Shown here piece after piece: positions 11,124 through 35,078 of a DNA stretch of 64,000 nucleotides (position 1 is the first letter of the stretch; each line of letters begins with the position of its first letter). Both the position numbers and the translations under genes were made by a program. The notes beneath the pieces are model-generated. The model was not told the origin of the DNA and made no database searches. It saw only the letters and a program-made list of their open reading frames with translations. Location: assembly GCA_015065385.1 (NCBI GenBank), contig SVQK01000084.1, positions 1-64,000 on the forward strand, given 5' to 3'. This stretch comes from Oscillospiraceae bacterium. Its GTDB lineage: Bacteria > Bacillota > Clostridia > Oscillospirales > CAG-272.

Positions 11124-11126
11124 CCT

Positions 11127-13163: not shown

Positions 13164-13166
13164 CTT

Positions 13167-15302: not shown

Positions 15303-15305
15303 CTT

Positions 15306-17360: not shown

Positions 17361-17478
17361 GATCACAGTCCTCCCGAATTTGGTATATCTATAAGAACGA
17401 AAATAAGCCGCATCCGTTACGCATAAAGGAAAAAAATCGAAAAAAACTGATCCCTCCAAAACTTTTTTCCTTTTTTCT

Positions 17479-17508: not shown

Positions 17509-17545
17509 CAGGTAAAAGGATCTTTTGCCAAGAAAGGAAACCGCC

Positions 17546-19945
17546 ATGAAACGCACGATCGGAAAAGCCCTCGCCCTTCTCGTCTCCCTCGCCCTGATTC
17601 TGGGACTGTTCCCGGGATGCCAAAAGAACGCCCCGGCGGAGGAGGAAGAGACAAAAAACGAAAATATCCTCACGAACATCTACGACCGGGTGAGCGGCGC
17701 GGACTCGGCGGGCATGCTGAACACCTTCGTCCGCCCGTGGTGGGACGGGGAGAGCGGCACGCTGACCTATGTCACAACGGAATACAAAGAGGAAACCGTC
17801 CCCTCTGAGAAGGCGGAGGATCCGGAAGACGGGGATGCGCTTGTCCGGTATTCCGTCTGCTCCCTCGTCACGCTCTCCGAGGACGGGACCTCCTCATCCG
17901 CGGAAATCCTCGACGACCGGGACGGTTACGGACTCGGCTGCGGGATGCTCGACGCGGACGGCCTCACCTGCGCGGTCTACGCCTATAACGGGAACAACCG
18001 CCGCATCCTGCTCAGCCGGTACGAGATCGAATCCGACAGCTGGACCTTCGGGGAGGACCTCTCCGCCCTGTTCGCGCAGAAGCCCTATTCCCTCTCCGGC
18101 CTTCGTTCCGACGGGAACGGGACGCTTTACGCCGCCTCGGACCGGGAGGTTTTGTTCCTCACCCCGGACGGGCAGAAGAAAGGCTCCGTCGTCCCCGACA
18201 TTTCCGGGGGCGGGGAGATCTCCGGCCTTTACGCCTCCCCGGACGGGCGGATCTTCGCCGCGATCACCTACATGAGCGGGAACCCGGAGGCGGTTGAAAT
18301 CCTCGGGCCCTCCGGGACGGTCGGCGAGCGCATCCACATCGACGGAAACATGCGGGACGGGGACGGAGAATATCTCTTCTTCTGCTCGGAAAACGACGGA
18401 ATCTGGGGCTATCGGGAAACGGCGGACGGCATCGGGAAAGAGCTTTTGCTCGACTACGTCAATTCCGGGATCCTCTGGTCGGAGTCGAGATTTTTCGGCG
18501 CGGCGGGAGGGCGGATGTTCATCCTTGTGTCCGAGAACGGCGCGTTCCAGTCCGGCGGGACCATGACGATCTATCAGCCCGGCGAGGATATCGATCTGAC
18601 GGACGCCGAGACCCTGACCGTCGCGTACATCGGATTTCTGCCGACATCCATGACGGAGGCGGTAAACCGGTTCCGGCAGGATCACCCGGACGTGGCGGTG
18701 GTGCTGGACGATTTCGGCGAATACAACACGAACGAGAACTGGCGGGGCGGCTACGACAAGCTGGCGCGGGATATGGCAACGGGCCTGTACAAGCCGGACA
18801 TCGTTCTGGGAAACAACAACGCCCCTCACATCACGCCGCTTTTGGAGAAGGGCCTTTACACGGACCTCACCCCCTTTATCGAGGCGGACGAAACGGTGAA
18901 TCGGGACAATCTCTTCGACTGCGTGGAGCGGATGTTCGACGACGGCCGGGGCGGGATCTGGGGCACCGCGGCCAACTTCACCCTCGGATCCCTCGTCTCC
19001 ACGCCGGAGTTTTTGGGAAAATACGCCGAGCAGGGCTATTGGACCCTCGAAGACGTGCTCGACACCATCGACGGGCTGCCCGAAGACTGCGAATTCATGC
19101 TCGGCCTCAACCGGACCATTCCGCCGCTTCTCGAATACGGAGCCTATATGGAGTTCATCGACCGGAAGGCGGGAACCTGCTCCTTCGACGATCCGGTGTT
19201 CCTCCGCTATCTCAATTACGTCAACACCCTGCCGTCCTATGAAGAGGCCGCCTCGAAATCCCTCTACGCGGGGCTCGACGGCGACGGGCAGGCAGAGGCG
19301 CGGATTTCCGGAAAGATCCGGGTTACAGTCGGCGGCAACAGCGGCGCACTCAACGACACGAGCAGGCTCCGGCGGCTGATCACCCAGTTCGGAACGAAGG
19401 ACTGGATCCTGATTGGCTATCCGGCCCCGGTAAAACGCCCGGGCGCGGGAATCTCGGCGGGGACCCAGACGGCGGTCGTCATCACCTCCTTCTGCGAGGA
19501 TCCGGAGCTGGCGTGGGATCTGGTCCGCCGCTCCTTCACGGGCAAGGGGGGACAGGGCGGCATCCCGGCGCTTCTCTCCACCTTCGACGAATTCCTCGAA
19601 GGGGGCGACAGCTGGACCGGCGGCTTATCGTGGTACGACACCCAATTTGAAGATCTCTACGCACACCACGGATACAACGGCATGGAGCGCCCTCTCTCCA
19701 ACGCGATCACCGAGGATGAAATGGAATTCCCCGGGATCCTCTCGACCTTCACAAGAGAAGACCGGGACAAATATGTGAAGATCTTCAACGATGCTGGCTG
19801 CACGCCGGACGAAGCGGGGATCGACGAGATCTACGACATCCTCTATGAAGAAATGTCGGCCTTCCTCGGCGGCGTCGGCACGGCTGAAGACTGCGCGGCG
19901 AAGATACAATCGCGGGTTTCCATCTGGCTGGCGGAGAACCGGTGA
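17546..19945 (+). CDS. Propeller-SBP lipoprotein, AENR-stop subfamily, paralog 8
   Basis: Surface lipoprotein of 799 aa with lipobox LFPGC (Cys25). The start at 17546 begins the signal peptide and is preceded by AAAGGA. Residues about 60-350 are propeller-like, with repeated units such as GTLYAASDREVLFLTPDGQ and GRIFAAITYMS. The SBP-like half begins near 355 (LTVAYIGFLPTSM). It has the ligand-domain motif GLYKPDIVLGNNN near 410 and ends SRVSIWLAENR. It is on the strand opposite the minus-strand seven but belongs to the same architecture. The following gene shares its C-terminus. Confidence 0.8.
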   Translation: MKRTIGKALALLVSLALILGLFPGCQKNAPAEEEETKNENILTNIYDRVSGADSAGMLNTFVRPWWDGESGTLTYVTTEYKEETVPSEKAEDPEDGDALVRYSVCSLVTLSEDGTSSSAEILDDRDGYGLGCGMLDADGLTCAVYAYNGNNRRILLSRYEIESDSWTFGEDLSALFAQKPYSLSGLRSDGNGTLYAASDREVLFLTPDGQKKGSVVPDISGGGEISGLYASPDGRIFAAITYMSGNPEAVEILGPSGTVGERIHIDGNMRDGDGEYLFFCSENDGIWGYRETADGIGKELLLDYVNSGILWSESRFFGAAGGRMFILVSENGAFQSGGTMTIYQPGEDIDLTDAETLTVAYIGFLPTSMTEAVNRFRQDHPDVAVVLDDFGEYNTNENWRGGYDKLARDMATGLYKPDIVLGNNNAPHITPLLEKGLYTDLTPFIEADETVNRDNLFDCVERMFDDGRGGIWGTAANFTLGSLVSTPEFLGKYAEQGYWTLEDVLDTIDGLPEDCEFMLGLNRTIPPLLEYGAYMEFIDRKAGTCSFDDPVFLRYLNYVNTLPSYEEAASKSLYAGLDGDGQAEARISGKIRVTVGGNSGALNDTSRLRRLITQFGTKDWILIGYPAPVKRPGAGISAGTQTAVVITSFCEDPELAWDLVRRSFTGKGGQGGIPALLSTFDEFLEGGDSWTGGLSWYDTQFEDLYAHHGYNGMERPLSNAITEDEMEFPGILSTFTREDRDKYVKIFNDAGCTPDEAGIDEIYDILYEEMSAFLGGVGTAEDCAAKIQSRVSIWLAENR

Positions 19946-19984
19946 GCATCGCTTTCATACGACAGCGGACAAATAAAAACGGCC

Positions 19985-20013
19985 TTGCGCTCCCGAAGAA
20001 AGTATGATAAAAT
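19985..20013 (+). promoter_or_regulatory. Possible promoter for paralog 9
   Basis: TTGCGC, 17 bp and TAAAAT in the 106-bp gap before the gene. The -35 is poor (3 of 6), so co-transcription with the upstream paralog is equally likely. Confidence 0.35.
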
Positions 20014-20051
20014 GGAGCATCGGGAAAAAACCGGTTTCCGGGGGGAACAGA

Positions 20052-22571
20052 ATGAAAAGGACAGAAAACAGATCCGTTCGGGGAGCGCTGCGCCGGACAG
20101 CCGCGCTTTTGTGCGCCGTGCTTGTGACGCTGACCGGGTGTGAAAAGAAAACGGAGGGCGGGCAGAACGGGGCCGCTCCGACCGGGGCAGCGGTCAGTTC
20201 TGCGGTGGGGGAATATGAGCCTATCACAAACGCGGATTCGCTGACGGGCGTGTACCGTCCGGCGGAGACCTACGGCTTCGAGGGCGAACGGCTGGACGGC
20301 ATCTCCTCCCCGCTCTACGACGAGGAGACCGGGAGCCTCACCGCCTTCTCGATCCTCGAAAAAGAAGTCCCCCAGACGGACGAAAACGGCGATCCCGTCT
20401 ATATGCTGCCCGGCATTCAGGCGACGGAGCTATTCTATACGGCTACCCTGCGCACGCTCCTGCCCGATGGGACGTGTACGGACGCCGTACCCCTGCCCAT
20501 GCCGGAGGGACACATTTTTTACAAGGGCGGGATTGCGGAAAACGGGGTGTGGTACGTCTCGTACGATACGTCCGCCGCTTTGAACGACCCGGAGCGGTAC
20601 GCGCTGAATCGGACGGACCGGGACGGCGGGGAGCACCGGAGCCTGTTTGTCCCGGAGATCTTCGCCAACCCGATCGACACGGCACAGCAGACCCGTCTGA
20701 ATGCCGCGCTGTTTTCGGACGGTTCTTTAGCCGTCGGACTCGGATATGAGATCGCGGTGCTGGACCGGGAGCTGAACCGCCTGTACTCCGTCGCGGTGGA
20801 CGAAGAGATTGAAGCGCTCGCTCCGCGTACAGACGGCGGGATCCTGATCCTCTCGGGTTCTTCTCACGAGAGAAAAATCCGGACGCTCGGCGTTGGAGAG
20901 GACCGTCTCACGCTCTTCGCCGATCTGAACGGATCCACGGATCAGATCTTCTTCGGCCCGGGCGCGGATTACTACGGGCTGGACCGGGAGGGGATCTACG
21001 CCGCGCGGGATGGAGAAATCGTCCGGCTGATGAACCGGCAGAATTCCGGCCTCTCCGGAACCGTTTTCCCGATCGAAGCCGCCGCGCCGGAGGTGTTCAT
21101 CCTCGTCGTCATGACCGATTCGGGAGAGGGCGAAAACTCGATTTCCCTCTACCGGAGCGCGGGGGACATCGATCTATCGACGGTCAGGGTGATCGAAATC
21201 GCTTCGACGATGTACTACCTGTCGCAGGAACTCGAGATGAAAATCGCAAAATACAACCGCGAGCATCCCGAAACGCGGGTGGTGGTCACGGTGGCGGTGA
21301 ACGACAGCGTGCCGTTCGAGGAACGCTTCGACCGCCTGTGCTTCGATCTGGGGAACGGATTCTACAAGCCGGACATCATCCTCTCATCCAACAACGCAAA
21401 CCCGCCGAAACTCTTCGACACCGTCCTCGGGAAGCACCTCTACCGCGACCTTACGCCCTATCTCGAGAAGGATCCCGACGTGAAGCTCGACGATCTCTTC
21501 GGCATGGTGCGCTCGTATTTCACGGACAAGGACGGCGGACTCTGGGGGATCACCCCGACCTTCCGCCTCCGCGCGCCCACCGGAAGAAGCGACATTCTCG
21601 GCAAATACGCGCAGAAAGGACACTGGACGCTGGAGGAGGAGCTGGATTTTCTCGGATCCCTGCCAAAAGGAACGGTCGGCATCCACGAACTCACTCAGGC
21701 AAACTGGCAGCGAAACCTGCTCGGCCCCTCGGGTTTCAACCGCTGGATCGACTACGATGCGGCAACATGTCATTTCGACCGTGAAGATTTCGGCAGACTC
21801 CTGCGGTATCTCTCCACCCTTCCGAAGGATTACGAAGAATACGAACGCCGGGCGGGGTTCTGGGCGGGCGTGAGCAGCGAGGAAAAATACCGGTATTACG
21901 TCCCGTATCAGAACGGGGAGATCGCGCTGACCAATGAAAATCTCGACGGCGTGATGAGCTTCTACTCCACCCGAGAGAAATTCGGAACAGCCGGCGGCAA
22001 TACGGATGAGACGCTCTGTCACATCGGCTTTCCGACTGAAAACGGACTGGACGCCGTGGAGTTTTCGACGGATTCTCTGTGCATCCTCACGTCCTACTGC
22101 TCCGATCCGGACGCCGCATGGGACGTGATCCGCTCCCTCTTCGGCGATCCGGAAAGCTTCGGCGGCGGAATCAACGGGGATGTCAACGCCATCTTTTTCA
22201 ACTACTCGTTCTCCTCGCTGAAATCCGTGTTTGACGGTCAGGCGAAGATCTTCGATACCTATTTCATCGAGCGAGCGGTTCTTCCGGGGGATCCCTTTCC
22301 GAGTTCACTCGTTCTGCCCCGCGCGGCCGGAAGCATACCGACGCCGACGAGAGGAGGGCAGGTCATCGTCTATGACCGGGACTTCATCGGAGGCATCCGC
22401 TCTCTCCTCGACAACGCGGCCTGCTCGCCCTATATTGACTACACCCCCGCGGAGATCAAGGACATCATCTTCGAGGAGGTCTCGGCCTACCTCGGCGGCG
22501 GGGCGGACGCGGATCGGTGCGTGAAAAACATTCAGTCCCGCGTGTCCATCTGGCTCGCGGAGAACCGGTGA
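20052..22571 (+). CDS. Propeller-SBP lipoprotein, AENR-stop subfamily, paralog 9
   Basis: Surface lipoprotein of 839 aa, the largest of the nine. The start at 20052 follows GGGGGAACAG. A basic N-region of about 16 residues precedes the hydrophobic core, and the lipobox is LTGC (Cys30). The propeller-like half is about 60-370. The SBP-like half begins near 377, with GFYKPDIILSSNNANPP near 430, and ends SRVSIWLAENR as in paralog 8. A terminator follows at 22591-22620. Confidence 0.8.
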   Translation: MKRTENRSVRGALRRTAALLCAVLVTLTGCEKKTEGGQNGAAPTGAAVSSAVGEYEPITNADSLTGVYRPAETYGFEGERLDGISSPLYDEETGSLTAFSILEKEVPQTDENGDPVYMLPGIQATELFYTATLRTLLPDGTCTDAVPLPMPEGHIFYKGGIAENGVWYVSYDTSAALNDPERYALNRTDRDGGEHRSLFVPEIFANPIDTAQQTRLNAALFSDGSLAVGLGYEIAVLDRELNRLYSVAVDEEIEALAPRTDGGILILSGSSHERKIRTLGVGEDRLTLFADLNGSTDQIFFGPGADYYGLDREGIYAARDGEIVRLMNRQNSGLSGTVFPIEAAAPEVFILVVMTDSGEGENSISLYRSAGDIDLSTVRVIEIASTMYYLSQELEMKIAKYNREHPETRVVVTVAVNDSVPFEERFDRLCFDLGNGFYKPDIILSSNNANPPKLFDTVLGKHLYRDLTPYLEKDPDVKLDDLFGMVRSYFTDKDGGLWGITPTFRLRAPTGRSDILGKYAQKGHWTLEEELDFLGSLPKGTVGIHELTQANWQRNLLGPSGFNRWIDYDAATCHFDREDFGRLLRYLSTLPKDYEEYERRAGFWAGVSSEEKYRYYVPYQNGEIALTNENLDGVMSFYSTREKFGTAGGNTDETLCHIGFPTENGLDAVEFSTDSLCILTSYCSDPDAAWDVIRSLFGDPESFGGGINGDVNAIFFNYSFSSLKSVFDGQAKIFDTYFIERAVLPGDPFPSSLVLPRAAGSIPTPTRGGQVIVYDRDFIGGIRSLLDNAACSPYIDYTPAEIKDIIFEEVSAYLGGGADADRCVKNIQSRVSIWLAENR

Positions 22572-22590
22572 GGCCGGATCATCACAGACA

Positions 22591-22620
22591 ACGGAACGGC
22601 GGGGAAACCCGCTTTTTCCG
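22591..22620 (+). terminator. Rho-independent terminator after paralog 9
   Basis: GCGGG-GAAA-CCCGC followed by five T, flanked by ACGGAA/TTCCGT that can lengthen the stem. Confidence 0.7.
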
Positions 22621-22695
22621 TTTAAGGCGAGCTCTCGGCCCGATCCGCGGGGGCGGCTTTCCTGATTTTGCAAAATAAAAAATCTCTCCGCCCTC

Positions 22696-22724
22696 TTGAC
22701 AAAGCAAATCGGATGTGATAGACT
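22696..22724 (+). promoter_or_regulatory. Promoter of the BlaI/BlaR1-like operon
   Basis: TTGACA, 17 bp and TAGACT. The imperfect repeat at 22733-22754 lies directly downstream at the expected transcript start. Confidence 0.8.
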
Positions 22725-22732
22725 ACAGAAAA

Positions 22733-22754
22733 GGTCGGTCGCAGCAGACCAACC
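22733..22754 (+). promoter_or_regulatory. Candidate operator for the BlaI-like repressor
   Basis: GGTCGGTC and GACCAACC form an inverted repeat (7 of 8 pairs, 6-bp spacer) covering the predicted +1 region. The half-site differs from the classical BlaI/MecI TACA box, so binding by the adjacent repressor is an inference. Confidence 0.45.
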
Positions 22755-22784
22755 AGAAAACGGAGCGCAGGGAGTATTTTGACA

Positions 22785-23147
22785 ATGGAAGACTTGAGAC
22801 TGTTTGAAAGCGAATTTCGGTTCATGACGCTGGTGTGGGACAACGAGCCCGTCTCGTCCATGAAGCTGGCGGAGCTGTGCGCGGAAAAACTGAAATGGAA
22901 GAAATCCACCGCCTTCACCATGCTCAAAAAGATGTGCGAAAAGGGGTTCGCAAGGAACGACCGCGCCGTCGTGACCTCCCTCGTCTCCCGGGAGGCGGTG
23001 CGGACGGCGGAGTCGGAGCGCGTGGTGGAGAACACCTTCGCGGGATCCCTGCCGAATTTCCTCGTCTCCTTCCTCGGCTCGAAGAAGCTGTCCCGGGAAG
23101 AGACCGAACGGCTGATCCGCCTCATCGAAGAACACAGGGAGGAATGA
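22785..23147 (+). CDS. BlaI/MecI/CopY-family transcriptional repressor
   Basis: Protein of 120 aa, the usual length for the family. A winged-helix DNA-binding domain occupies about 1-72 (FMTLVWDNEPVSS, then KKSTAFTMLKKMCEKGF as the recognition region). A helical dimerisation and cleavage-site region follows (SREETERLIRLIEEH). I prefer the ATG at 22785, 10 bp after GGGAG, to a TTG two codons upstream. Family members bind as dimers, repress their own operon and are cut when the cognate membrane metalloprotease is activated. The gene is followed 1 bp later by that receptor gene. Confidence 0.88.
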   Translation: MEDLRLFESEFRFMTLVWDNEPVSSMKLAELCAEKLKWKKSTAFTMLKKMCEKGFARNDRAVVTSLVSREAVRTAESERVVENTFAGSLPNFLVSFLGSKKLSREETERLIRLIEEHREE

Positions 23148-23148
23148 C

Positions 23149-26100
23149 ATGGCCGGCCTGTTTCTTTCGATCCTCTCCATGAGCCTGACGGGATCCGCGG
23201 TGATTCTGGCGGTTCTTTTGGCGAGGGTTTGCCTGCGCCGCGCGCCGAAGAAGGTCTCGTACCTTCTCTGGATCCCCGTGGCGTTCCGGCTGATCTGCCC
23301 GGTGAGTTTTTCTACTCCGCTGTCCCTGTTCCGGCTTCCGGGACTGGAGGCGGAGGTCTCGCACATCTCCGCGGCTCTGTCGGAGAATATCGATACAGTT
23401 GACATCCGGCTTGACGGGTCGGAAACAACCCCGTCCGGACCGGCTGATTCCGCCGCGCCTTCCCCGGCCTCGGATCCGGTCGAACCCATCTCGATGCCCG
23501 ATACCGCGGAACCGGCGGAACCCGCGCTTCCCGTTCCGACCGGCGGACAAACCCCGCCCGCTCCGGAGAACGAAACGCCCGCGCTGTCCGTTGACGATCC
23601 GGCTCCGGCGGAACAGACCCCGGCGAACGAACGGCCCGCCGAGCCCGTATGGGAGAATCCCGCTGCTGTGACGGAGCTCCCGCCCGTGACGCAGACGATC
23701 CCGTCCGGGAATGACGGCACGCCCGCGCCGACGCATGCCGGGGAACCGGCTTCGGACCCGGAACTCCCGGTACAGCCGGTACAGCCGGACGGGACTGCCG
23801 ATGAAACGCCCGATCTGCCCCCGCCGGATTCCTCCGAAGAATCGTTGACGTTTTGGGAACGCATCGCGGGGATCCGGGCAAGGATCCTCACGCCGCTGTC
23901 GGTCGTTTGGCTGGCGGGCGTCGCGGCGGTCCTGCTCTACGGCGTCGTCAGCACGCTGGCGATCCGGCGGATGATGGCGACGGCGGTCTGGCGGGAGGAC
24001 AACGTCTGGGAATCCGACCGGATGCGCTCGCCCTTCATCCTCGGACTGATCCGCCCGAAAATCTACATCCCCTTCGGACTGGAGGGGGACTGCCGCCGGT
24101 ATGTGCTGGCCCATGAGCGGTACCATCTCCGGTGCCGGGACGATCTCACCAAGGCAGCAGGATGGGGGATCCTCGCCCTGCACTGGTTCAATCCGCTGGT
24201 GTGGCTGGCATTCCGTCTCATGTCCCGGGATATGGAGATGCGGTGCGACGAGGCGGTGCTCTCCGGATCCGCGGACGAAGCGGGAAACGCGGGGATCGCC
24301 AGGGCGTACAGCATGTCCCTGCTGTCCTTCGCCGCCGACGAGCAGATCCGCTTTCCCCTCTCCCCGGCCTTCGGCGAGTGCGACGTGGAAACCCGCATCC
24401 GCCGCATCCTCGACTGGAAAAAACCGAAGATCTGGGTCTCCGTGCTGGCGGGCGTTCTCGTTCTCGCCGTGATCCTCGTCTGCGCGTCCGATCCCGTGAC
24501 CGCGGCGGATGAACCGACGGCGCAGGCCGCGACGGACGACACTCCGGAATCAGGACCGGACAGCACGCCGGACGAAGATAAAACCGCCGCGGAAACCGCC
24601 GCCTTTGTCCCCCTCACAAAGCTGCCCGCCGGGGACTGGACGCCGCTCGCCGCCGCTGCGGAAAACGTACTTTACACCACCGGCGGATGGATGGAGGGTT
24701 CTCTGTCCTCCTATGTCGCCGGATACTGGAACGGCTGGTACCGGGGAAACGGCGCGTTCTGTTCCACGACCCTTCACCTCATGCCTTATACGAAGGACTC
24801 CTTCCGCTGGATCGGCTCCGCGGGGGAGGTCTCCTATGACTACCGCGGGACGTACCGGATCGGGGAAGACGGCCTTCTCACCGCCCGGTTCGGCGCGGGG
24901 AACGATGAAGCGAAGCCCTTTGAAGCCGTGTTCCGGGTGCGGTACGACGCCCGGCACGACTACGGCACGGAATACCGCGAAGTCCTCGGGGTGACGCTGG
25001 TTTCCTCGACGGCCCCCGGATTTGACCCGTGGATCGGCCGGGAGCTTCCCATGACGGGAGCGCAGTGGTTCCGGGGAGATCTCAACGGAAATCCTGCGGA
25101 CGCGATCGTGAAGATGACGCCCGCAGACGGGGAGTTCTTTCCCCCGCCGGATGCGTTCTTCTGTGAAATGGACTCCGCCGATTTGGTCGTCGGCGAACAT
25201 CTCGACTCCTTTTCGCCGGAGGTCTCCTCCGTCGCTATGTCCGTATCCGATCTCGGCGATCTGATCCTTTACGCGGAACGGGCCGGGGAGAGCGGGAAAT
25301 TCCTTCTGACTTCCTTCCGCTGGCAGGGCGTGCGGGTTGACCTTCCCCGTCCCCTGCGCTTCGAGCCGTATCGGTTTCATCTTCTGCGCGGGGAGCAGTT
25401 CGCGTGGTTCACCGAATTTGACCGATTCGGAGAGTCCGCCGATACCATGGTTGTTTTTCTGACGGAGGACGGCGCGTACTGCCTCGACAGCAGGACGGCG
25501 GGACTCGGATACGCGCTCGCTCTGTGGCCGGAGCAGGACGGCAAAACCGTCGGCTGGTCTCGCACCAACCCCGATTTTCTGAACATGCAGACCTATGAAG
25601 AACTGCTCCGCTTCCGGGGACGGGAGGACGATTTCTGTTATGAAAGCGGCACGCTCCGGTACGACGGGGACGGGCGCTTTGTCTTCTCCTACAAAGAACG
25701 GCTGACCGGATCGGAGTGGTTTGAAGAGCAGAAGAAAACCGAACCGGAACGATACCCGGAAGAGACCTTCGGGAGCATGAGTTTCCGGGAGTATCTCTCG
25801 GACTACCTGCCCCGCGAGATCCGGGACAACACCCTCCGCGCCAAGGGCCTGTTCACGCCGGAGGAAGCGGAAACCATCGCCTATCATCTGATTGACGGCA
25901 TGTCCCCGCGAACCATGGCGGACAAGGGCTTTGCGTTCGGCGCGGCTCAGGTTCAGGGATTTCTCATGCGCCTCGGTTTGATGACGCGCAACGCTGACAC
26001 ACACCCGTTCCCGGCGGCCCTTTCCTCCCTCTGGACCGAATGGCCGGACGGGGAGGGCATTTCCCGCGCGAACGCCTGCCGCATCGCGGAAGAGATGTTC

Positions 26101-29100
26101 GGCGTCTTTCCGAGCGCGCCGGGAGAGCTTTCGTCAAACCTGTTCCGCTACGACGAGGCGGGGGACCGGTTTGTCGTCAACCCGACCGGTGGCTCCCACG
26201 GGTATTTCACGATGGAAGACGTTTCGACCGTATGGGACGACGTCTCCGTGACCGTCCGCTTCCGGCTGGTGACCTATGTTCCGGACGGCACCGGCCAGTC
26301 CGCGGGGATCTATGCCGACGAGCGGACCGACTGCGGCGAATACCGGCTGATCTTCTATAAGACAAACAGCCTCTATACATGGGAGCTGCCCCGGATCCTG
26401 TTTGCCAAGCGCGGGGAGATCGAAGCGGACGGCGCCCCGGAGCCTCCCGTCGGCGACGAAGTGAAAGCCGCCATCGTGTACCCAGATTTCTTCGACGAGG
26501 AACAGCGAGACCTCTATGCCCGCGCCCTGGTTCTCTTCCCCGCGGTCTGGGGAACGAGCGGATCCTATATCGAAGACGCTTTTCCGCGGAAGGACGGCGA
26601 ACCCTTCGTGAGCGGGCGTCTCTGCCCGGCCGTCACGGTGTTCGACCCGGAAAGAGGCTATGATCTCTACTGCCATATCTGCCGCGGGCGGTACGAGAGG
26701 TGGGCGGATCTTGACGCCGCGGGACGCGCTCTCTTCACCGGGGAGCTGTGGGAATCGATCACCGGCCCCGGCCAAAGGTGCATGAACTACGGCGGGAAGA
26801 CCTGCGTGCAGGACGCGGACGCGGGAGGAAACGGATATGACCCGGCCCTCGACCGGTTTGAACTGGTGGAGAAAACCGAGGACAGGATCGTCTATTGGTT
26901 CATCACCTCGAATCGGGCGCGGGGGACATTTGAGATCGAAAGCTCCGAGCGGACGCTTGTCACGATGGTGAAGACGGCGGAGGGCTGGCGGTTCGGCTCC
27001 TTCCGGGTGGGGACCTGGCTGCCCGCGGGGACGGAGACGGAAAGAATGACCGTCCACGTCAATACCCCGGAGGAAGCCGAGAGCCTTGTCCGCATGCTCG
27101 TGCGCGACGTAATGGACGTCTCGTGGCGCGCCGGGCGGATTTCCTATACCCCGGCTGACGCGCTGAATCTGACGCAGGGGCTGAAAACGGCCTTCACCGA
27201 CGCCTTCTTCCCGTTCCGCGAGGCAGTATCCCACGACGGGCATACATGGAGGATCCATGCGGATCATATCCGGAACGCGGCGCGGGAACTCTTTGGCATC
27301 CGGGACTTCGACTACTTCGCCGCCGCCCGTGAGGTGTACGGGGAGGACGCGGACGTCTCCGCCTCGATTGACGGGATGGGCTGGATCTCCTTCCCTGCGG
27401 ACATCGGGAATCACACGGCGAGCTTCGACGTCTCCGAGCTCTACTCCTACGAGGAGAACGGAGCCGTCCGGGTGTTCGCCCATCTGGTGACCGCCTCCGA
27501 CGATTCCGGGGATCCGACGGACTGCGGGATCTACTGCTTCACCTTTGCGCCGAACTTCGACGGGCCGGGGCTGACGGTGGAGAGGACCGCCGCACAGTGG
27601 TCCCGCGCCGACGTTGAGGCGGAGATCGCGCGGCTCACCGGACAGCGCACCATCGCCGTGAACGACATGAACAGCGCGTCGGAGAGGACGGTCGAGCTGG
27701 AAGGGGAGATCCGCAAAATGCGCGTGATCCTCGAAGCGGAGTCCGGCGTCACGATAGAGGACAGGACCTACGCCTCCGCAAGACTCGAGGAACTGTACGC
27801 GAAGAGAGAACAGCAGGTCGCCCTCGCGGAGCGGTGTCTGAACGCCGTCAAAGAGTTCGCGGCGCGGATCCGGGTGTATGAGCAGATCCTTGCGGAGATG
27901 GACGGCGGGAGCTATACGGACGATCCGCTGTCCGCCCGGCTGCGTGGTCTGACGGCGGAGGATATTCTCTCCCTTGCATCGACCTTCGATCATATCACGG
28001 CGGAAGAGCTGGCTCCGATCCTGAACCGGACGGGGATTCTCGGCGGCCAGCCCGCTCCCGAAGATTTCCGCGCGTACTACACGCTGGACGTGTATCTCTC
28101 GGAAACGCCCTCCGGCGGATTCGGTTCCGAGAGCGAGACGCTCACCCTTTTCGCGGGGCTGGAGGAGGATCTTGTGCGGATCCTGTGGTCCGGAAAAGGT
28201 ACAAACACGGCGGAGGAGCGCTTCGTGCGGGACGCGGCCCTGTACCGGATCCTGCGCGAGAACTACCGTCTGCCGCTGATGGAGCAGATCGACGCGGACG
28301 CCTTTGAAAAATGGGGAGAGCCCGCCCGGGAACGCGCCGCCGAAACGGTCGAAAACACCCGCGGGATGGACGGACGCCCCGCGTTCACGGACTACCGGAT
28401 CGTCAGCTTTGCCGTGGCGGATACGTTCGAGCGGGACGGCGCGAAGTACACGGTCTGCTCATGGGATCCGGTCTATCTGACGAACGATCCGGACAATGTG
28501 GTCTGGGCGGGCGGCATGCTCCTCGACGCGGACGGACGGGTCGTCGGGGCGGAGCTTGAAACATACCTCGCGGAGCAGTGGACGGAATCCGGAACCCGGA
28601 CCGTGTTTCTCATGTGGGATCTCTACAACGGACCGGACAGAGAAACCGGCCTTGCATGGGGACGGGACCGGATCGTCGAAGCCTTTGAACGGCTCGAAAA
28701 CGAAGGGGATGGAATCAGTCAGGATCCGCTTTTATCCTACACCCTCGCTCCGGTCTTTACGGAATCCGTGAGGACAGGACTGTACAAGCGTGAAATCACG
28801 ATCCTCGGTTTTGAATCCGATTCCGCCCACTGCGAAGAAATCAACGCCTTTCTCGGGCAGGGCGAAGCGACCCGGGCGTCCTATCTGAACGGCGTCCGCG
28901 ACACGGAGCATCCCTCGCCGGAATGGTACGACAACTGGGTGCTGCGGATCTCGGCAAGCGGCGCGGAATACGGGGATCTGCTGTTTCTCACTGTGCGGAC
29001 GATCCGTCCGTCCACCTATATCGACGTGCCGCGGTACGACACGCTGATCCTCGACCGGAGGACCGACCGGCTGATTTCCCTCGACGAGGCGGCCTCCGCG

Positions 29101-30567
29101 CTCGGGTTCGACGCCGAAAAACGCACGGCCGCGGCGAAAGAAGCATTTGTAGGTTCCATCGGAGGACTGCGGGAAGATCAGGAGTTCAAGTACTTCGAAT
29201 TCCGTGACTTCGCCGCCATTGAAGGCAGGCTCTACGGGAGGTACGAGTACGATTTCCACGGAGTGGATTCCGCGCAGGACTGGCTCGAGCTGGTTGACAA
29301 GGGTTCCGTCCTGACCGCGGAAGACGCGGACACGCTGGCGATGGAGCTCAGCCGATACCTGCGGATCACCGAGATCGATTCCGCTTCCGTCCCGCACGAC
29401 GCGGCGGTCGCGGATGAAACGGGGCTTTACTTCAAAGTGACGGATCAGGAGTTCGCTTCATGGGACGGGTGGCAGGCGTTCGTGAGAAAACTCTTTACCG
29501 AAGAAGCGGCACAGCGAATTCTGACCGATCCCGACGGCGTGATGAAGGAGGTCGGCGGGCTCACGTTCGTCCGCCCCGGCGCGGGAGGTGGATTTGATCC
29601 GAACCGCTATACCTGCGCTGCCCGGTATGAAGAGGGACGGTATAAACTGATTGTCAGGTACTCCGCTCCGCCGTCCGACGAAAGCGGTTCGGTCCGGCGT
29701 GTCTTCCCCCTGAGGTACGAGAACGGAGCATGGCGCGTCGAGCGGATGGAATCCGAGCCCGTGGCCGCGCTGACCTTCAATCCAGACGAAAGAACCGCCT
29801 CGTCCCTTGACGAGCTTTCGAATCTCGGGCTGAACGAGAACGACGCGCGCCTTGCGTATGTCCGCGCCTTTGTCACGGGCGACGTCGATCGGCTGGAGGA
29901 GGTCTCGGGCGTCCCGTCGGGGATGTACGCGGGGTACGGCACGGTGGAGCTGTCAAGCTGGACGGCGTGGATCGATCCGGACGAGGACTGGGGGCCTTTG
30001 CGGTTCGCCTTTGTCCCATTGCGGTCGGACGTGGAGGCTTTCCCGACGGATACGCGGATCGAGGGCACGGTTTACGAAGGTCTGTCGGGCGCGTATTTCA
30101 CGCGGGACGAAACGCCCGCTTCTTACGGAGAGGCCGCGGACGAGCTGGTTGAGCTGCTCTCCCGCCACATCCTGCTCGACCTTCCGACGACGGACGAGAT
30201 GGACTATCCCACCCGCTTCGAGCTCACCTGCTATATCTGTTCCAAGCTCGGAGACGCGGACCTGACCGAAGAGGCATACCGAACCTACGCGGAGAAGCAC
30301 TTCGGGATCGAACACTTCACACCCGACGGCGGGCATGTGGGACTGCACGGCGGTCACGGGGGATCCCATCAGGTCCTTGAAATCGTCGGCAGCGAGGAAC
30401 AGGACGGCGCGACGGTCGTCACGGTGCAGTATTACGCCGATCTGTCCAAAACGGTGAAAAGCAGTACATGGCAATATACAGTGCGGAAAACGGACGACGG
30501 ATGGCTCTTTGCCGGAAGCGAAGAGATCCGGCATTCCGACTACGGGCGGGCAATGTGGTCGATGTGA
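23149..30567 (+). CDS. Giant BlaR1/MecR1-type M56 metalloprotease receptor (2472 aa)
   Basis: Membrane sensor-protease. TM1 is about 3-25 and TM2 about 34-55. A Pro/Glu/Thr-rich loop covers about 84-235 and TM3 about 245-270. The cytoplasmic zinc protease has HERYH at 322-326 and MEMRCDE at 362-368, where Glu363 is the likely third ligand. TM4 is about 425-445. Beyond it lies an exported region of about 2000 residues, whereas ordinary BlaR1 has about 260 there. This ectodomain has no visible SxxK penicillin-binding signature. It contains at least three related modules (about 970-1090, 1370-1480, 2375-2472), each opening with a helix ending FGI or FGV and continuing into strands. A charged coiled-coil lies at about 1484-1584. 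The family role is to sense an extracellular ligand and cleave the BlaI-like repressor encoded just before it. The ligand here is unknown. Confidence 0.82.
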   Translation: MAGLFLSILSMSLTGSAVILAVLLARVCLRRAPKKVSYLLWIPVAFRLICPVSFSTPLSLFRLPGLEAEVSHISAALSENIDTVDIRLDGSETTPSGPADSAAPSPASDPVEPISMPDTAEPAEPALPVPTGGQTPPAPENETPALSVDDPAPAEQTPANERPAEPVWENPAAVTELPPVTQTIPSGNDGTPAPTHAGEPASDPELPVQPVQPDGTADETPDLPPPDSSEESLTFWERIAGIRARILTPLSVVWLAGVAAVLLYGVVSTLAIRRMMATAVWREDNVWESDRMRSPFILGLIRPKIYIPFGLEGDCRRYVLAHERYHLRCRDDLTKAAGWGILALHWFNPLVWLAFRLMSRDMEMRCDEAVLSGSADEAGNAGIARAYSMSLLSFAADEQIRFPLSPAFGECDVETRIRRILDWKKPKIWVSVLAGVLVLAVILVCASDPVTAADEPTAQAATDDTPESGPDSTPDEDKTAAETAAFVPLTKLPAGDWTPLAAAAENVLYTTGGWMEGSLSSYVAGYWNGWYRGNGAFCSTTLHLMPYTKDSFRWIGSAGEVSYDYRGTYRIGEDGLLTARFGAGNDEAKPFEAVFRVRYDARHDYGTEYREVLGVTLVSSTAPGFDPWIGRELPMTGAQWFRGDLNGNPADAIVKMTPADGEFFPPPDAFFCEMDSADLVVGEHLDSFSPEVSSVAMSVSDLGDLILYAERAGESGKFLLTSFRWQGVRVDLPRPLRFEPYRFHLLRGEQFAWFTEFDRFGESADTMVVFLTEDGAYCLDSRTAGLGYALALWPEQDGKTVGWSRTNPDFLNMQTYEELLRFRGREDDFCYESGTLRYDGDGRFVFSYKERLTGSEWFEEQKKTEPERYPEETFGSMSFREYLSDYLPREIRDNTLRAKGLFTPEEAETIAYHLIDGMSPRTMADKGFAFGAAQVQGFLMRLGLMTRNADTHPFPAALSSLWTEWPDGEGISRANACRIAEEMFGVFPSAPGELSSNLFRYDEAGDRFVVNPTGGSHGYFTMEDVSTVWDDVSVTVRFRLVTYVPDGTGQSAGIYADERTDCGEYRLIFYKTNSLYTWELPRILFAKRGEIEADGAPEPPVGDEVKAAIVYPDFFDEEQRDLYARALVLFPAVWGTSGSYIEDAFPRKDGEPFVSGRLCPAVTVFDPERGYDLYCHICRGRYERWADLDAAGRALFTGELWESITGPGQRCMNYGGKTCVQDADAGGNGYDPALDRFELVEKTEDRIVYWFITSNRARGTFEIESSERTLVTMVKTAEGWRFGSFRVGTWLPAGTETERMTVHVNTPEEAESLVRMLVRDVMDVSWRAGRISYTPADALNLTQGLKTAFTDAFFPFREAVSHDGHTWRIHADHIRNAARELFGIRDFDYFAAAREVYGEDADVSASIDGMGWISFPADIGNHTASFDVSELYSYEENGAVRVFAHLVTASDDSGDPTDCGIYCFTFAPNFDGPGLTVERTAAQWSRADVEAEIARLTGQRTIAVNDMNSASERTVELEGEIRKMRVILEAESGVTIEDRTYASARLEELYAKREQQVALAERCLNAVKEFAARIRVYEQILAEMDGGSYTDDPLSARLRGLTAEDILSLASTFDHITAEELAPILNRTGILGGQPAPEDFRAYYTLDVYLSETPSGGFGSESETLTLFAGLEEDLVRILWSGKGTNTAEERFVRDAALYRILRENYRLPLMEQIDADAFEKWGEPARERAAETVENTRGMDGRPAFTDYRIVSFAVADTFERDGAKYTVCSWDPVYLTNDPDNVVWAGGMLLDADGRVVGAELETYLAEQWTESGTRTVFLMWDLYNGPDRETGLAWGRDRIVEAFERLENEGDGISQDPLLSYTLAPVFTESVRTGLYKREITILGFESDSAHCEEINAFLGQGEATRASYLNGVRDTEHPSPEWYDNWVLRISASGAEYGDLLFLTVRTIRPSTYIDVPRYDTLILDRRTDRLISLDEAASALGFDAEKRTAAAKEAFVGSIGGLREDQEFKYFEFRDFAAIEGRLYGRYEYDFHGVDSAQDWLELVDKGSVLTAEDADTLAMELSRYLRITEIDSASVPHDAAVADETGLYFKVTDQEFASWDGWQAFVRKLFTEEAAQRILTDPDGVMKEVGGLTFVRPGAGGGFDPNRYTCAARYEEGRYKLIVRYSAPPSDESGSVRRVFPLRYENGAWRVERMESEPVAALTFNPDERTASSLDELSNLGLNENDARLAYVRAFVTGDVDRLEEVSGVPSGMYAGYGTVELSSWTAWIDPDEDWGPLRFAFVPLRSDVEAFPTDTRIEGTVYEGLSGAYFTRDETPASYGEAADELVELLSRHILLDLPTTDEMDYPTRFELTCYICSKLGDADLTEEAYRTYAEKHFGIEHFTPDGGHVGLHGGHGGSHQVLEIVGSEEQDGATVVTVQYYADLSKTVKSSTWQYTVRKTDDGWLFAGSEEIRHSDYGRAMWSM

Positions 30568-30624
30568 GGCACAGAATCAAAATCCGTCCGATCCGCTGTC
30601 CCGCAAAAGAAAGGAAAACCGATC

Positions 30625-31962
30625 ATGAAAAGAATCATACTCACGCTGCTCACGCTTCTGCTTGCGCTTTCGCTGATTCAGCCTGTCTGCTCCCTGAAAA
30701 TCGGCGACGTGGTGGGGCAGGTGCTTTACACGGACATTGTGGCCAAAATCGACGGGCACCCGATCCGCGCGTACAACGTGGCAAATCACATGTGCGTCGT
30801 GGCGGAGGATCTTCGCGCCTACGGCTTCGACGTCGTATGGTACGCGGACGAGCGCATGCTGACCGTAGCTCCCTCGAAAACGGTCAATCCCGCCTCCTTC
30901 CCGGCATACGTTCCCGAGCCGCCGAAAGGTCAGATCGGAGCCCCGGCGTTCCCCATCCTCTACACCGACATTGTGACCTATGTGGAGGGCCGGGAGGTCG
31001 AGAGCTACAACATCGACGGGCAGACGGTGATTTACTTCCAGGATCTGCGAAAGAGCGGCGTCGTTCACTACGACAACGCCGTCCGCATCACGTCGTTCAC
31101 CCACGCGGATCCGTGGAGCGTGTCGCTGTCGAAGACCGATTTCCCGCGGATTGCGGGCGGCACACCTTCCGTTCTCGCGGCGGTCGTCCGGACGAATGAA
31201 GTCGGCAAGCCCGTACTCACCCTCGCGTCCGATCCCGGCGGGCAGTATGAGCTGCATGTGTCGGAAAGAGGCCTCCGGCTGGCGCACTATACCTATGGCA
31301 TTCCGGAGGGCGATCCCTATTACGAAACGAATTTCTACAAGTCCTTCCTCGCCCTCACGACGATGGGCCTGCCCGACGTCGACGCGAACTACCTGCACTA
31401 CGACAACACCGACGAGCAGAAGGCGGCGGTCTCGGCCTATCTGCGGGTGACGCTGAACGGCGATCCGGTGAAGGGCGACTGCTTCCTCTCCTGGGGCAAC
31501 GGACACGCGGACGTCAATTTCAACTTCGACAAGATGATCGGGCTGAACGCCGGGGATTTTCTCCGGATCGAGATCGGAACGGAGGACGCGTTTGCCGCAG
31601 CAGCCGGACAGCCTGTCCCCGCGAACCGCACGCCGGAGGAAGAACTGAACGCCCTGCGGCAGAGATTCCTTTTCCACGAAGCGGAAACCGTGGAAAACGA
31701 GCTCTGTTATGTGCTCCGGGGAGAATTCCGGGGGACGACGATAGGAAATCAGGACACGCTTGACGTCGTTTACAAGGCCGGCGGGACGAAAGACCTGACA
31801 CACTCGCTCTATCCCTATTTTCAGGTCATCGACCGCATCGAATTCGGCGCGGACCCGAAGATCATGATCGTCACGGGGAGGATCCTCTCGGCGGACAAGC
31901 AGACGCTTCTCCCGTCGATCCTCGAGGTGAACATCTACACGGGGGAGACCGTGAAAAAGTAA
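30625..31962 (+). CDS. Exported protein with two stalk-like repeats
   Basis: Protein of 445 aa with a signal peptide (about 1-23, ending PVCS, cleavable type rather than a clear lipobox). Two related units follow: VLYTDIVAKIDGHPIRAYNV (about 32) and ILYTDIVTYVEGREVESYNI (about 110). Each is about 45-50 residues and resembles the copper-amine-oxidase N-terminal stalk domain used for wall attachment or assembly. The C-terminal half (about 180-445) is not recognised. It begins 57 bp after the receptor gene with a good SD (AAAGGAAA), so it is probably in the same operon. Confidence 0.65.
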   Translation: MKRIILTLLTLLLALSLIQPVCSLKIGDVVGQVLYTDIVAKIDGHPIRAYNVANHMCVVAEDLRAYGFDVVWYADERMLTVAPSKTVNPASFPAYVPEPPKGQIGAPAFPILYTDIVTYVEGREVESYNIDGQTVIYFQDLRKSGVVHYDNAVRITSFTHADPWSVSLSKTDFPRIAGGTPSVLAAVVRTNEVGKPVLTLASDPGGQYELHVSERGLRLAHYTYGIPEGDPYYETNFYKSFLALTTMGLPDVDANYLHYDNTDEQKAAVSAYLRVTLNGDPVKGDCFLSWGNGHADVNFNFDKMIGLNAGDFLRIEIGTEDAFAAAAGQPVPANRTPEEELNALRQRFLFHEAETVENELCYVLRGEFRGTTIGNQDTLDVVYKAGGTKDLTHSLYPYFQVIDRIEFGADPKIMIVTGRILSADKQTLLPSILEVNIYTGETVKK

Positions 31963-32035
31963 AGCTGCCGCGCGCGTCGTGCAGGCCCGGAACTTTTGCA
32001 GGGCTTCCGGCGTCTAAAACACCGAGGTGATAACA

Positions 32036-33394
32036 ATGAAAACCGCAAAGCGTTCCAAAATCGCCGGGCTTCTCTGCGCCGCCGCGGTGATGCTTTCCGC
32101 GCTGTCTGCCTGCGGTACCGCGCCTTCCGAAACCGATTACGGAAATGAAGTTCGGACAGAGCCCACGGAGCAAAACACCGACACGATGGAAGAACCGCAC
32201 CTGTGGGCCGAACAGATCAGCGCCAGAAAAACGGAGACCGTCAACCGGACGATGAAGGCGGATCCCTTTGACGAAAGGCTTTTCGACTATCTCTCCCGGA
32301 ACGCGGAAGGAAACTATATGGCCTCGCCGCTCTCCTTCCGCTACGCGCTCGGCCTGCTCCTTGCCGGGGCAGAGGGAGAAACGAAAGCCGAACTTCTGAA
32401 CGCGCTCGGCGTCTCGTCCGAAGAGGAGTGGACCGCGTACTGCCTCGACTTCAACGGATTTGTCGAATACTTCGCGGCCGATCTGGAAAAGGAGATTGCC
32501 GATTTTGAGGAAGGGGTCGGGCAAGGCTGGATACCGGCTGACGCAGCGAAGCCGTTCCGCGCGCTCCGGGTCGCCAATTCCGTCTGGAAAGCGGACCGGA
32601 TTCCGCAGAACTTCAAGGACGCCTATCGGGAATCCGTTGAACGGAATTACGCGGCGGAATACCGGTCCTTCACCCCGGAAAATGCCGTGGAAAAGATCAA
32701 CGAGTGGGCGGACGTCAAGACGGAGCACATGATCCAGAGGCTGCTGCCGGAGGATTATCCCACGGATCAGCTGGCGGTCGTTTTGATGAACGCCCTGTAT
32801 TTCAAGGATTCGTGGCAGAACGAATTCCCAAAATACCGGACGAAAGAAGACGATTTCCATACCCGCGGCGGTCAGACCGTCAAAAAGGAGTTCATGACGA
32901 CGGAGGATCACTTCTCCTACTATGAGGACGAAGACACCAAGCTCGTCATTCTGCCGATGAAGGGCGGCGTTTCGATGGCTTTTGCGCTCGGCTCCCGGGA
33001 GGGGATCGCCGGGAAGATCTCAAAAGCAGGCGCTGAAACCGTGAGAGTCAAAATCCCGAAGATGGATCTGGAAACCGACTTCTCGAAGGGGGAGTTCGTG
33101 GATTTTCTGAAGTCATCCGGCGTCAGCCTTGCCTTTGACGCGGGAAGAGCGGACTTTTCCGCGATGATCGATCACCCGGTCTATGTCAGCGACATCATTC
33201 AGAAGACCCGCATCAAGCTGGACGAGGAAGGCGTCGAGGCGGCCGCGGTCACGGCGGTCATGGATAGAACGACTGCTGACGTCATCCCTGAAGAACCGAA
33301 AGAATTCACGGCGGACGAACCCTTCTCGTTCTTCATTTACACGACCTGCAACGACACGACGGCGGTCCTGTTCGCCGGGGAGATCGTGGAGTAA
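32036..33394 (+). CDS. Lipoprotein serpin (serine protease inhibitor)
   Basis: Protein of 452 aa with lipobox LSAC (Cys26), a short linker and a full serpin fold. Landmarks are NYMASPLSFRYALGLLLAGA, then VLMNALYFKDSWQNEF, then the hinge EEGVEAAAVTAV at 397-408 and the C-terminal PFSFFIYTTCNDTTAVLFAG. The alanine-rich hinge indicates an inhibitory serpin. P14 is Val rather than the usual Thr/Ser. Counting from the hinge, P1-P1' would be Thr413-Ala414, but the loop is about three residues longer than in antitrypsin, so the scissile bond is uncertain. ATG 32036 is chosen because GAGGTGA ends 5 bp before it. It probably protects surface proteins from host or competitor proteases. Confidence 0.88.
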   Translation: MKTAKRSKIAGLLCAAAVMLSALSACGTAPSETDYGNEVRTEPTEQNTDTMEEPHLWAEQISARKTETVNRTMKADPFDERLFDYLSRNAEGNYMASPLSFRYALGLLLAGAEGETKAELLNALGVSSEEEWTAYCLDFNGFVEYFAADLEKEIADFEEGVGQGWIPADAAKPFRALRVANSVWKADRIPQNFKDAYRESVERNYAAEYRSFTPENAVEKINEWADVKTEHMIQRLLPEDYPTDQLAVVLMNALYFKDSWQNEFPKYRTKEDDFHTRGGQTVKKEFMTTEDHFSYYEDEDTKLVILPMKGGVSMAFALGSREGIAGKISKAGAETVRVKIPKMDLETDFSKGEFVDFLKSSGVSLAFDAGRADFSAMIDHPVYVSDIIQKTRIKLDEEGVEAAAVTAVMDRTTADVIPEEPKEFTADEPFSFFIYTTCNDTTAVLFAGEIVE

Positions 33395-33422
33395 ACGAAG
33401 GACCGGCACATCTGACAGAAAA

Positions 33423-33456
33423 CCCGGTATCGAGCAAATCGGTACCGGGATTTTTT
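33423..33456 (+). terminator. Rho-independent terminator after the serpin gene
   Basis: An 11-bp stem with one wobble pair (CCCGGTA outer arm), loop GCAAA, then six T. It closes the BlaI-BlaR1-exported-protein-serpin unit. Confidence 0.85.
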
Positions 33457-33508
33457 CGATTTCATCGGCTCTGCGTAAGCCGGTCTTTTTGATTTCCGGA
33501 CGTCTCCG

Positions 33509-35078
33509 TCAGGGCTTGATTTTCTCCACCGTCAGGACTTCGCCCGGGGCCGTTTCAAGCGCGGTGAACTGCTATGACAGCGGAATGACTTCGTCCCCTC
33601 TGTAAACGGCGTACCCCTCACCGGGCCGCTCCAGCGTCAGAGGTCTGCCCTTCTCGCTCCGGATCACCGCCCGGATCTCTCCGCCCTTCATCTCCCCGTC
33701 CACGACGAACGCGCCGAACGCTCTCAGCCCGTGGAAGGAGGCGTCCCAGGCGGGATTCCAGCAGGGGAAGAGGCGGAGGATATCCTCGTAGCTCTGGAGC
33801 AGCATTTCGTTGACCGTTCCCGGAACCGCCGCGCTGTTCTCGAGTCCTCCGCCGCCGTAGCTGAACATCCCGTTCGGCAGGCCGCGCTTTGCGATCACCT
33901 CGCGGATATGGGAGACGATCTCCTCCGGCGGGTATCCCATGCGGGCGGCGTCCGGATAGTAGGAGCAGAAGCGGTTGTGGATGTCCCAGATCGAGAGCTG
34001 CTTATGGGTGTTGATCGCCGCCTCGAAGAGTTCGGGGGTGGAAGTCCGTCCGATCTGCCCCGCCGGGAACATGGCTTCGAGGGCCAGCTCCCTTAGCTCC
34101 GTGCTGCCGTCGATACCGCGCAGGATCTGCTCCCCGTCGTGCTCGAAGGTCTCCCCGAGCGGAAGGTGGTCGAGAATGTCCTGCCACTTCGGAAAACTGC
34201 ATCCCGTCCGATGTAGCGTAGGTTCCCCAGATCCCGGGCGGGAATTTCTTGTTTCTCATGCAGCAGGCGCAGGCGTAGATCCCGGAATACCAGTATAATT
34301 CAAGGTCCTCGTTTCCGGGCAGGGACACGCCGCTCTTTGACCAGAAATCTTTCCACCATTCCGCGTGCTCCGCGAGCAGTCTGCCGCAGTCCTCCGCCGT
34401 CATCACGCCGACCCGCTCCACGGCCTCGTACCGGTACGCGGCGGTGTCGTGATTCGTGGCGACGGCGACGGCCCAGACGATCTTTTCCCGCCGTCCGTCC
34501 TCCGAACGGGAGCGGGAGATCTCCCGCAAGGCGCAGATCCCCCATGTCGGGAACCGGAATTCCGGATCGTCAAATCCCCGGACGGTCCATGACACGCCGC
34601 GTTCCTCCCCGGTTTCCGTGATCGTCTTGGGTCCGGGCATGGGGAGAAGGGCAAGGGAGGCCGACACCATCGGGAAGGAGCGGTCGAGCTCGAACAGGAT
34701 CGTGTTCTCCGCCGCGCAGACCGTCACTCTCAGATCCGCGCTCTGATCCCGATCCTTTACATGGAGCGAAATCGACGCCCCGTCCATGTCCTGCTCCGCC
34801 CGGTAGTCCGCCCACGCCATGTGGGGCAGAAGCAGTTCCGCCAGCCCGAGGGGGCAGAGTCCGCCGCACTCCTCCTGCGGGACCCGTTCGGAATAGTTGC
34901 GGTAGATCGGCTCGTCCGCCTTCCAGAAATCCGCCTTGCCGATGTAGACCCGCACCCGGTCCGGCCCGCCCGCAAGCGTGACCGTCACGTCGCCGTTGCC
35001 CGTGATCAAACCGTCGGGGAGGTTGATCTTCGGCGTCTGTTTCGCTGGCTCGGTGATCGAGAAAACGTGTTTTTGCAT
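33509..35078 (-). pseudogene. Glycoside hydrolase (GH65/GH95-like), core deleted and frameshifted
   Basis: The N-terminal part reads from ATG 35078 through a beta-sandwich-like domain to FPPGIWGTYATSDG. In this family that motif is followed by the catalytic (alpha/alpha)6 barrel. Here the sequence jumps near 34190-34201 into PKWQDILDHL in another frame, then continues IFPAGQIGR-like (MFPAGQIGRTSTPEL) to the C-terminal sheet domain. By family comparison from memory roughly 250 residues, including the catalytic region, are missing. A further in-frame TAG at 33572-33574 precedes 20 codons that run to TGA at 33509 (ending GEVLTVEKIKP). The gene is dead: one deletion with frameshift and one nonsense change. 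Family choice is tentative. Confidence 0.75.

Follow-up and report, generated by a model that had tools for sequence, protein, structure and literature searches.

A BlaI/BlaR1-type gene pair whose receptor carries a mosaic ectodomain of about 2000 residues in an Oscillospiraceae genome

To our knowledge, BlaR1, the receptor that is partnered with the repressor BlaI, is known almost exclusively as a penicillin sensor. The locus analysed here lies in a window of 64,000 nucleotides (positions 1 to 64,000 of contig SVQK01000084.1, assembly GCA_015065385.1, Oscillospiraceae bacterium; all coordinates are those of the window) and encodes a BlaI-type repressor followed by an M56-family receptor of unusual size. 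In the receptor of Staphylococcus aureus, EL1 (a loop, residues 56-96) is driven off the sensor by the ligand (PMC9834060). Repurposing of the family as such is not new, because a pair with no link to beta-lactams is in print: PetR/PetP of Synechocystis is a BlaI-family regulator with a BlaR1-family protease and is copper-responsive, acting on petE/petJ (PMC7896320). No description of M56 receptors with giant ectodomains was found in the open-licence PubMed Central literature, where one review listed covers both BlaR1 and IseA (PMC13204101).

The genome is available as a draft assembly of 4.3 Mb (128 contigs), and its named close relatives are rumen metagenome-assembled genomes labelled uncultured Ruminococcus or Clostridia bacterium. 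The reading that we favour, with moderate confidence, is that the receptor is a self-inducing proteolytic receptor of the BlaR1 type for a surface macromolecule, in which the penicillin sensor has been exchanged for a 2000-residue mosaic ectodomain.

The repressor and the signalling core

The two genes and the signalling features of the receptor are as follows.
22785-23147, plus strand: blaI-type repressor, 120 residues from ATG (Penicillinase_R, 70.6 bits; cut-off 22.6)
23149-30567, plus strand: M56 receptor, 2472 residues, a single open frame
23311-23901, plus strand: EL1, an enlarged proline-rich loop between predicted transmembrane (TM) stretches TM2 and TM3, 197 residues, 19% proline (from sequence)
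24112-24126, plus strand: HERYH zinc-protease motif, residues 322-326 (from sequence)
24235-24237, plus strand: candidate third zinc ligand Glu363, the equivalent of BlaR1 Glu242 at a constant offset of 121
24358-24372, plus strand: LSPAF, residues 404-408, the putative equivalent of the BlaR1 self-cleavage site LSHS-F284, in the same loop before TM4 (PMC9834060)

The gap between repressor and receptor is 1 bp, and ATG 22785 is a likelier start for blaI than TTG 22779, the start given in the list of open reading frames. The repressor matches MecI (E 4.2e-6 and 7.8e-6) and has a Ser-Phe pair that aligns with MecI Asn101-Phe102. The receptor matches Peptidase_M56 with 132.2 bits (cut-off 31) and has four TM-like stretches predicted from its sequence (residues 6-24, 36-54, 252-270 and 428-446). 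A preliminary description of this DNA, made from the letters alone, had called the metalloprotease core canonical, and this was borne out: HERYH is followed by MEMRCDE at residues 362-368, and H322, D331, E363 and D367 correspond to BlaR1 His201, Asp210, Glu242 and Asp246, all at that same offset (PMC9834060). Judged by these residues the BlaR1 core is intact, and the receptor is predicted to be an active protease that cleaves BlaI.

The length of EL1 rises with that of the ectodomain among 35 complete M56 proteins (Spearman 0.56), a sample biased towards long proteins and a correlation that ignores kinship. The value is 0.52 without four close relatives (n=31) and 0.70 at n=20, the four and then fifteen of the 35 rows having been dropped by eye. 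The correlation is compatible with, without proving, a conserved loop-to-sensor coupling that enlarged along with the sensor, and it renders the coupling of sensor to protease in BlaR1 testable by comparison.

The ectodomain and its modules

The ectodomain has 2026 residues, about eight times the 254 of the S. aureus BlaR1 sensor (residues 332-585; PMC9834060), as had been estimated beforehand. The reported lack of a penicillin-binding motif also stands up, since neither SxxK nor K[ST]G occurs anywhere in the 2472 residues of the receptor and six pieces of the ectodomain gave no Pfam match to a transpeptidase model at E<=5; on these grounds a hidden penicillin-binding domain was rejected. Pfam likewise found no penicillin-binding domain at E<=0.01 in 13 giant or long receptors of the genus, of which one has a DUF5050 match over the cut-off and a few have propeller-type matches below it (BNR, FG-GAP). 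An M56 protein beside BlaI is the classical pair for beta-lactam signalling, and the NCBIfam model blaR1_generic matches weakly, with 61.7 of the 400 bits needed and in the core only. Against the view that the receptor is an ordinary sensor of beta-lactams whose penicillin-binding domain is cryptic stand the missing motifs, the missing transpeptidase match and the absence of a beta-lactamase among the neighbours examined, and we hold this explanation to be extremely improbable. The ectodomain is not a penicillin sensor. Because it is some eight times larger, has no penicillin-binding site and is built of interchangeable modules, the signal that it reads is probably another one, large and present at the cell surface. 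The preliminary description had proposed a proteolytic receptor repurposed for a large extracellular ligand; the intact core and the loss of the penicillin sensor uphold the first part, while the ligand is a guess.

A second concern, that the frame joins two genes by a sequencing error, is ruled out because genomes of the same genus carry long single frames of 1804 (G018), 1954 (G016) and 2063 residues (G024), each after a blaI, and because the ratio of nonsynonymous to synonymous substitution rates is 0.25-0.48 in all nine segment comparisons, as under purifying selection (residues 1480-1591 and 2368-2472 left out). One G005 contig holds receptor residues 852-2367 in one frame, without 1480-1591. 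The orthologous receptor of G002 (L034:5935-14264) is split into two frames, of 289 and 2537 residues, and a DUF5050 module has been added to its ectodomain.

The ectodomain was divided into the following modules (receptor residues in brackets).
24556-25143, plus strand: module A (470-665), weakly lipocalin-like
25144-25698, plus strand: module B (666-850), weakly propeller-like; profiles and structure models
25831-26433, plus strand: module C (895-1095), weakly NTF2-like
26440-27045, plus strand: module D (1098-1299), of an IseA-like family; profiles
27076-27588, plus strand: module E (1310-1480), with a relationship to C seen after iteration; profiles
27589-27921, plus strand: coiled-coil hairpin (1481-1591); profiles and model
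27922-28713, plus strand: modules F and G (1592-1855); profiles
28756-29304, plus strand: module H (1870-2052), which opens two other giant ectodomains (iteration only); profiles
29311-29748, plus strand: module I (2055-2200), a second IseA-like copy; Pfam, profiles and Foldseek
29791-30564, plus strand: modules J and K (2215-2472); profiles

Internal repeats were not found by plain self-BLAST or by one-pass profiles. After two profile iterations C matches residues 1306-1469 (E 2.4e-39) and D matches 2055-2200 (E 3.0e-35), giving two internal duplications, C with E and D with I; the recurrence of H likewise needs iteration. A reversed-sequence control gave no match for any of 12 modules. The repeated modules and the coiled coil described earlier are both present. 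A common origin of D/I with C/E or with K was rejected (hhalign probability 0.4 and 5.2).

Using profiles built from orthologues only, in one pass, and counting matches outside the orthologues, module A recurs in two M56 receptors (L037 and L074), C in L037, D in L036 and L046, the hairpin in L036, L037 and the contig piece L057, F and G in L057 only, and J in L054. Module K recurs in five M56 receptors (L054, L069, L050, L071 and, weakly, L072) and B, also weakly, in one protein (E 8e-4). The order differs as well, being coiled coil, A, C in L037 and A, C, coiled coil here. The G018, G005, G016 and G024 relatives lack the hairpin at this position, as expected of a mobile module. The ectodomain is therefore a mosaic of recurring, reordered modules. 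Modules C, D and E are also found in six free proteins, with tandem pairs in three genomes, and several of these proteins have a lipobox-like start (L058-L060).

The tandem pairs of free C/D proteins, one of each pair with E (L058:8512-12410, L059:5889-9796 and L060:1268-5181), lie beside phage tail or virion-like genes, and these loci are perhaps a domesticated tail-like element. The free lipoproteins had no match in phage records, and an NlpC/P60 enzyme beside them was rejected after none of eight matches in four genomes fell on those contigs.

In the predicted model, residues 1486-1529 and 1536-1584 of the coiled coil form two antiparallel helices, a hairpin (block pLDDT, a per-residue confidence, of about 83-92). 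Other folds are of low confidence: mean pLDDT is 57.8 over seven sequences and 45.7 over eight rows, outside the coiled coil the fold rows serve only as suggestions, and one further fold list was filled by coiled-coil matches. Sequence searches of the PDB gave no match for the whole ectodomain or for the core, and no credible match for the K and C/E profiles. The receptor could instead recognize envelope fragments or dietary glycans, with the weakly propeller-, lipocalin- and NTF2-like modules binding sugars or lipids; its relevant outputs would then be the solute-binding lipoproteins encoded nearby. Since the models behind those folds are weak (pLDDT 57.8, template-modelling score <0.1), only 3 of the 16 solute-binding family members adjoin an M56 gene and the ectodomain pieces contain no glycan-binding Pfam domain, we consider this rather unlikely.

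The best PDB matches of the joint profile of modules D and I are the three IseA entries (E 0.024-0.035) that cover most of the domain, and Pfam PF16800 matches four of the 16 D/I family members (best E 3.6e-6). In a Foldseek search with the low-confidence model of residues 1477-2472, IseA was placed at ranks 2, 5 and 15 (2rsx, E 0.058; 8wt4, E 0.16; 8i2e, E 0.24). Two further M56 frames of the genus also contain PF16800 matches below the cut-off (G014:C236, E 8.1e-6; G007:C115, E 0.0047). With scores this marginal, D and I look as if they share the IseA fold, not membership of the family. In module H a resemblance to the RsiV-like DUF4163/DUF3298 was considered and is not claimed, as no RsiV entry in the PDB matched at E<=10 and Pfam found neither domain in seven of seven members.

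All 25 genomes of the genus have PF05569. The search for other M56 proteins over 1500 residues that had been recommended returned at least 14 frames of 1500 or more among the 133 M56 frames listed, a count made after six short or fragmentary frames (all <1500 residues) were dropped. Among the matches listed, the longest has 3856-3857 residues (L069:3184-14754, G006) and a blaI directly upstream. In a sample of 117 genomes of the order 72 have a PF05569 match, and outside the genus two of the frames listed reach 1500 residues (1549 and 1710). BlaI lies close upstream in 37 of 42 M56 frames, these being chosen loci rather than a random sample, and all seven over-cut-off BlaI matches in the genome studied here adjoin an M56 gene. 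The receptor is one of many in the genus with long, shuffled ectodomains.

The promoter, the putative operon and its neighbours

The remaining elements of the locus are given below.
22696-22724, plus strand: promoter-like site TTGACA-17-TAGACT, the sole one in 22560-33700
22733-22754, inverted repeat with no strand assigned: operator-like dyad GGTCGGTC-N6-GACCAACC
30625-31962, plus strand: secreted protein, 445 residues, 58 bp after the receptor, with no confident Pfam domain
32027-33394, plus strand (start possibly ATG 32036): serpin, 455 residues (Pfam Serpin, 226.9 bits, E 5.9e-67)
33423-33449, plus strand: terminator-like hairpin of 11 pairs with a T-run, the longest stem listed in 22560-33700

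The dyad is unique in its own 4.3-Mb genome at up to two mismatches, where a control pattern gave none; at three mismatches the pattern is no longer informative. Six related promoters (L029, L032, L036, L033, L031 and L010) have similar dyads at the corresponding position, and the same promoter layout precedes 34 of 39 BlaI-like rows in a pattern search run without a control. No dyad of the BlaI operator type, TACA..TGTA, was seen in the promoter sequence here, the dyad present being of a GGTC type. Other blaI promoters have dyads of different sequence, often two, of which one covers the -10 region and the other follows closely downstream. Such differences between repressor groups may possibly make a set of insulated channels. 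The dyad could alternatively be a hairpin in the 5' untranslated region or a terminator for the minus strand, on which it reads as a terminator-like hairpin.

The receptor might also be mainly a surface protein or adhesin, with the M56 part as an anchor or self-processing device and signalling vestigial. Its long mosaic resembles the evolution of surface proteins, and modules C-D-E exist as free lipoproteins. These points are opposed by the blaI found directly upstream in 37 of the 42 frames, by the conservation of the catalytic residues and by the retention of the dyad in related promoters, and we regard the explanation as quite unlikely.

Between 30567 and 32036, from receptor to serpin, no plus-strand site resembles a terminator. 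This suggests that repressor, receptor, secreted protein and serpin form one operon behind one promoter, running to 33449. An orthologue of the secreted protein is encoded 69 bp downstream of the G016 receptor. The serpin, seen here in a rumen Clostridia genome (32027-33394), contains EEGVEAAAVTAV, which by serpin numbering we take to be a hinge-like stretch, and its presence suggests that the serpin is inhibitory.

Two tandem genes for solute-binding-protein-like lipoproteins lie at 17525-22571 and belong to a family that has 16 loci here; one relative is found 61 bp behind another M56 gene (C28), and in G005 and G018 relatives precede the receptor frame by 714 bp. Further upstream are four adjacent long open reading frames of 678-717 residues (8979-17459, minus strand).

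Proposed mechanism and comparison with known systems

We propose that a macromolecular ligand at the cell surface would bind the ectodomain, our best guess being a peptidoglycan-cleaving peptidase or other protease met by the IseA-like modules. Binding would alter the contact between the ectodomain and the enlarged EL1 loop, and the cytoplasmic zinc protease would then cut the partner BlaI at its Ser-Phe bond. BlaI would leave the dyad at 22733-22754, its putative operator, and the putative operon from repressor to serpin would be induced; any role of the serpin in the response is a guess.

Several points weigh against this proposal. Its ligand is a guess, and its activity and expression are predictions. 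The one promoter-like site compares with 1.6 expected in shuffles of the same interval (22560-33700). A serpin adjoins the receptor in none of the three relatives with readable downstream sequence (G016, G024 and G002); the G018 and G005 contigs end too early for the comparison, and the serpin link is seen in this genome only. As to the IseA-like modules, an unrelated gamma-crystallin comes next in the D/I profile list (E 0.036, over a short stretch), module I is below the PF16800 cut-off (12.8 of 29.9 bits, E 0.12), module D has no PF16800 match and one structural row places IseA on module C, not D. Additionally, the genome has one NlpC/P60 match.

Taken further, the proposal would describe the BlaR1-like receptors of rumen Clostridia as an arsenal that spans the genus, with shuffled ectodomains, each with its own repressor and private operator. 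The present receptor would use decoy copies of the fold of a cell-wall-hydrolase inhibitor to sense hostile or stray peptidases (from host, protozoa, phage or the cell itself) and answer with a serpin, as an attack sensor on the chassis of a penicillin receptor; we put this forward as speculation and think it unlikely. Should the core work with ectodomains that range from hundreds to thousands of residues, M56/BlaI would be a general plug-in platform for receptors, used much as two-component or anti-sigma systems are, and it would be misleading for automatic annotation to label such genes regulators of beta-lactam resistance.

RsiV is a lysozyme-binding anti-sigma factor (PMC4183432) and is alike in the proposed sense that an enzyme outside the cell is read by a membrane protein, which signals through proteolysis; unlike the present receptor it has no M56 domain, and module H has no sequence match to RsiV in the PDB at E<=10. 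IseA (YoeB) is a secreted inhibitor of D,L-endopeptidases in Bacillus subtilis (PMC7299342). Modules D and I can be aligned with most of its length at marginal scores but are below the Pfam cut-off and part of a receptor. The PetR/PetP pair resembles this one in serving a use other than beta-lactams and differs in its copper response at petE/petJ. A close likeness is also that to BlaR1/BlaI and MecR1/MecI of staphylococci and bacilli, which share the repressor-receptor pair, four TM stretches, HExxH...E between TM3 and TM4, an LSxxF self-cleavage motif and a repressor with Phe at P1'. In contrast with the 254-residue penicillin-binding sensor and 41-residue EL1 of BlaR1, the receptor described here has 2026 residues without SxxK and an EL1 of 197, its promoter has another dyad, and the putative operon encodes a secreted protein and a serpin instead of a beta-lactamase.
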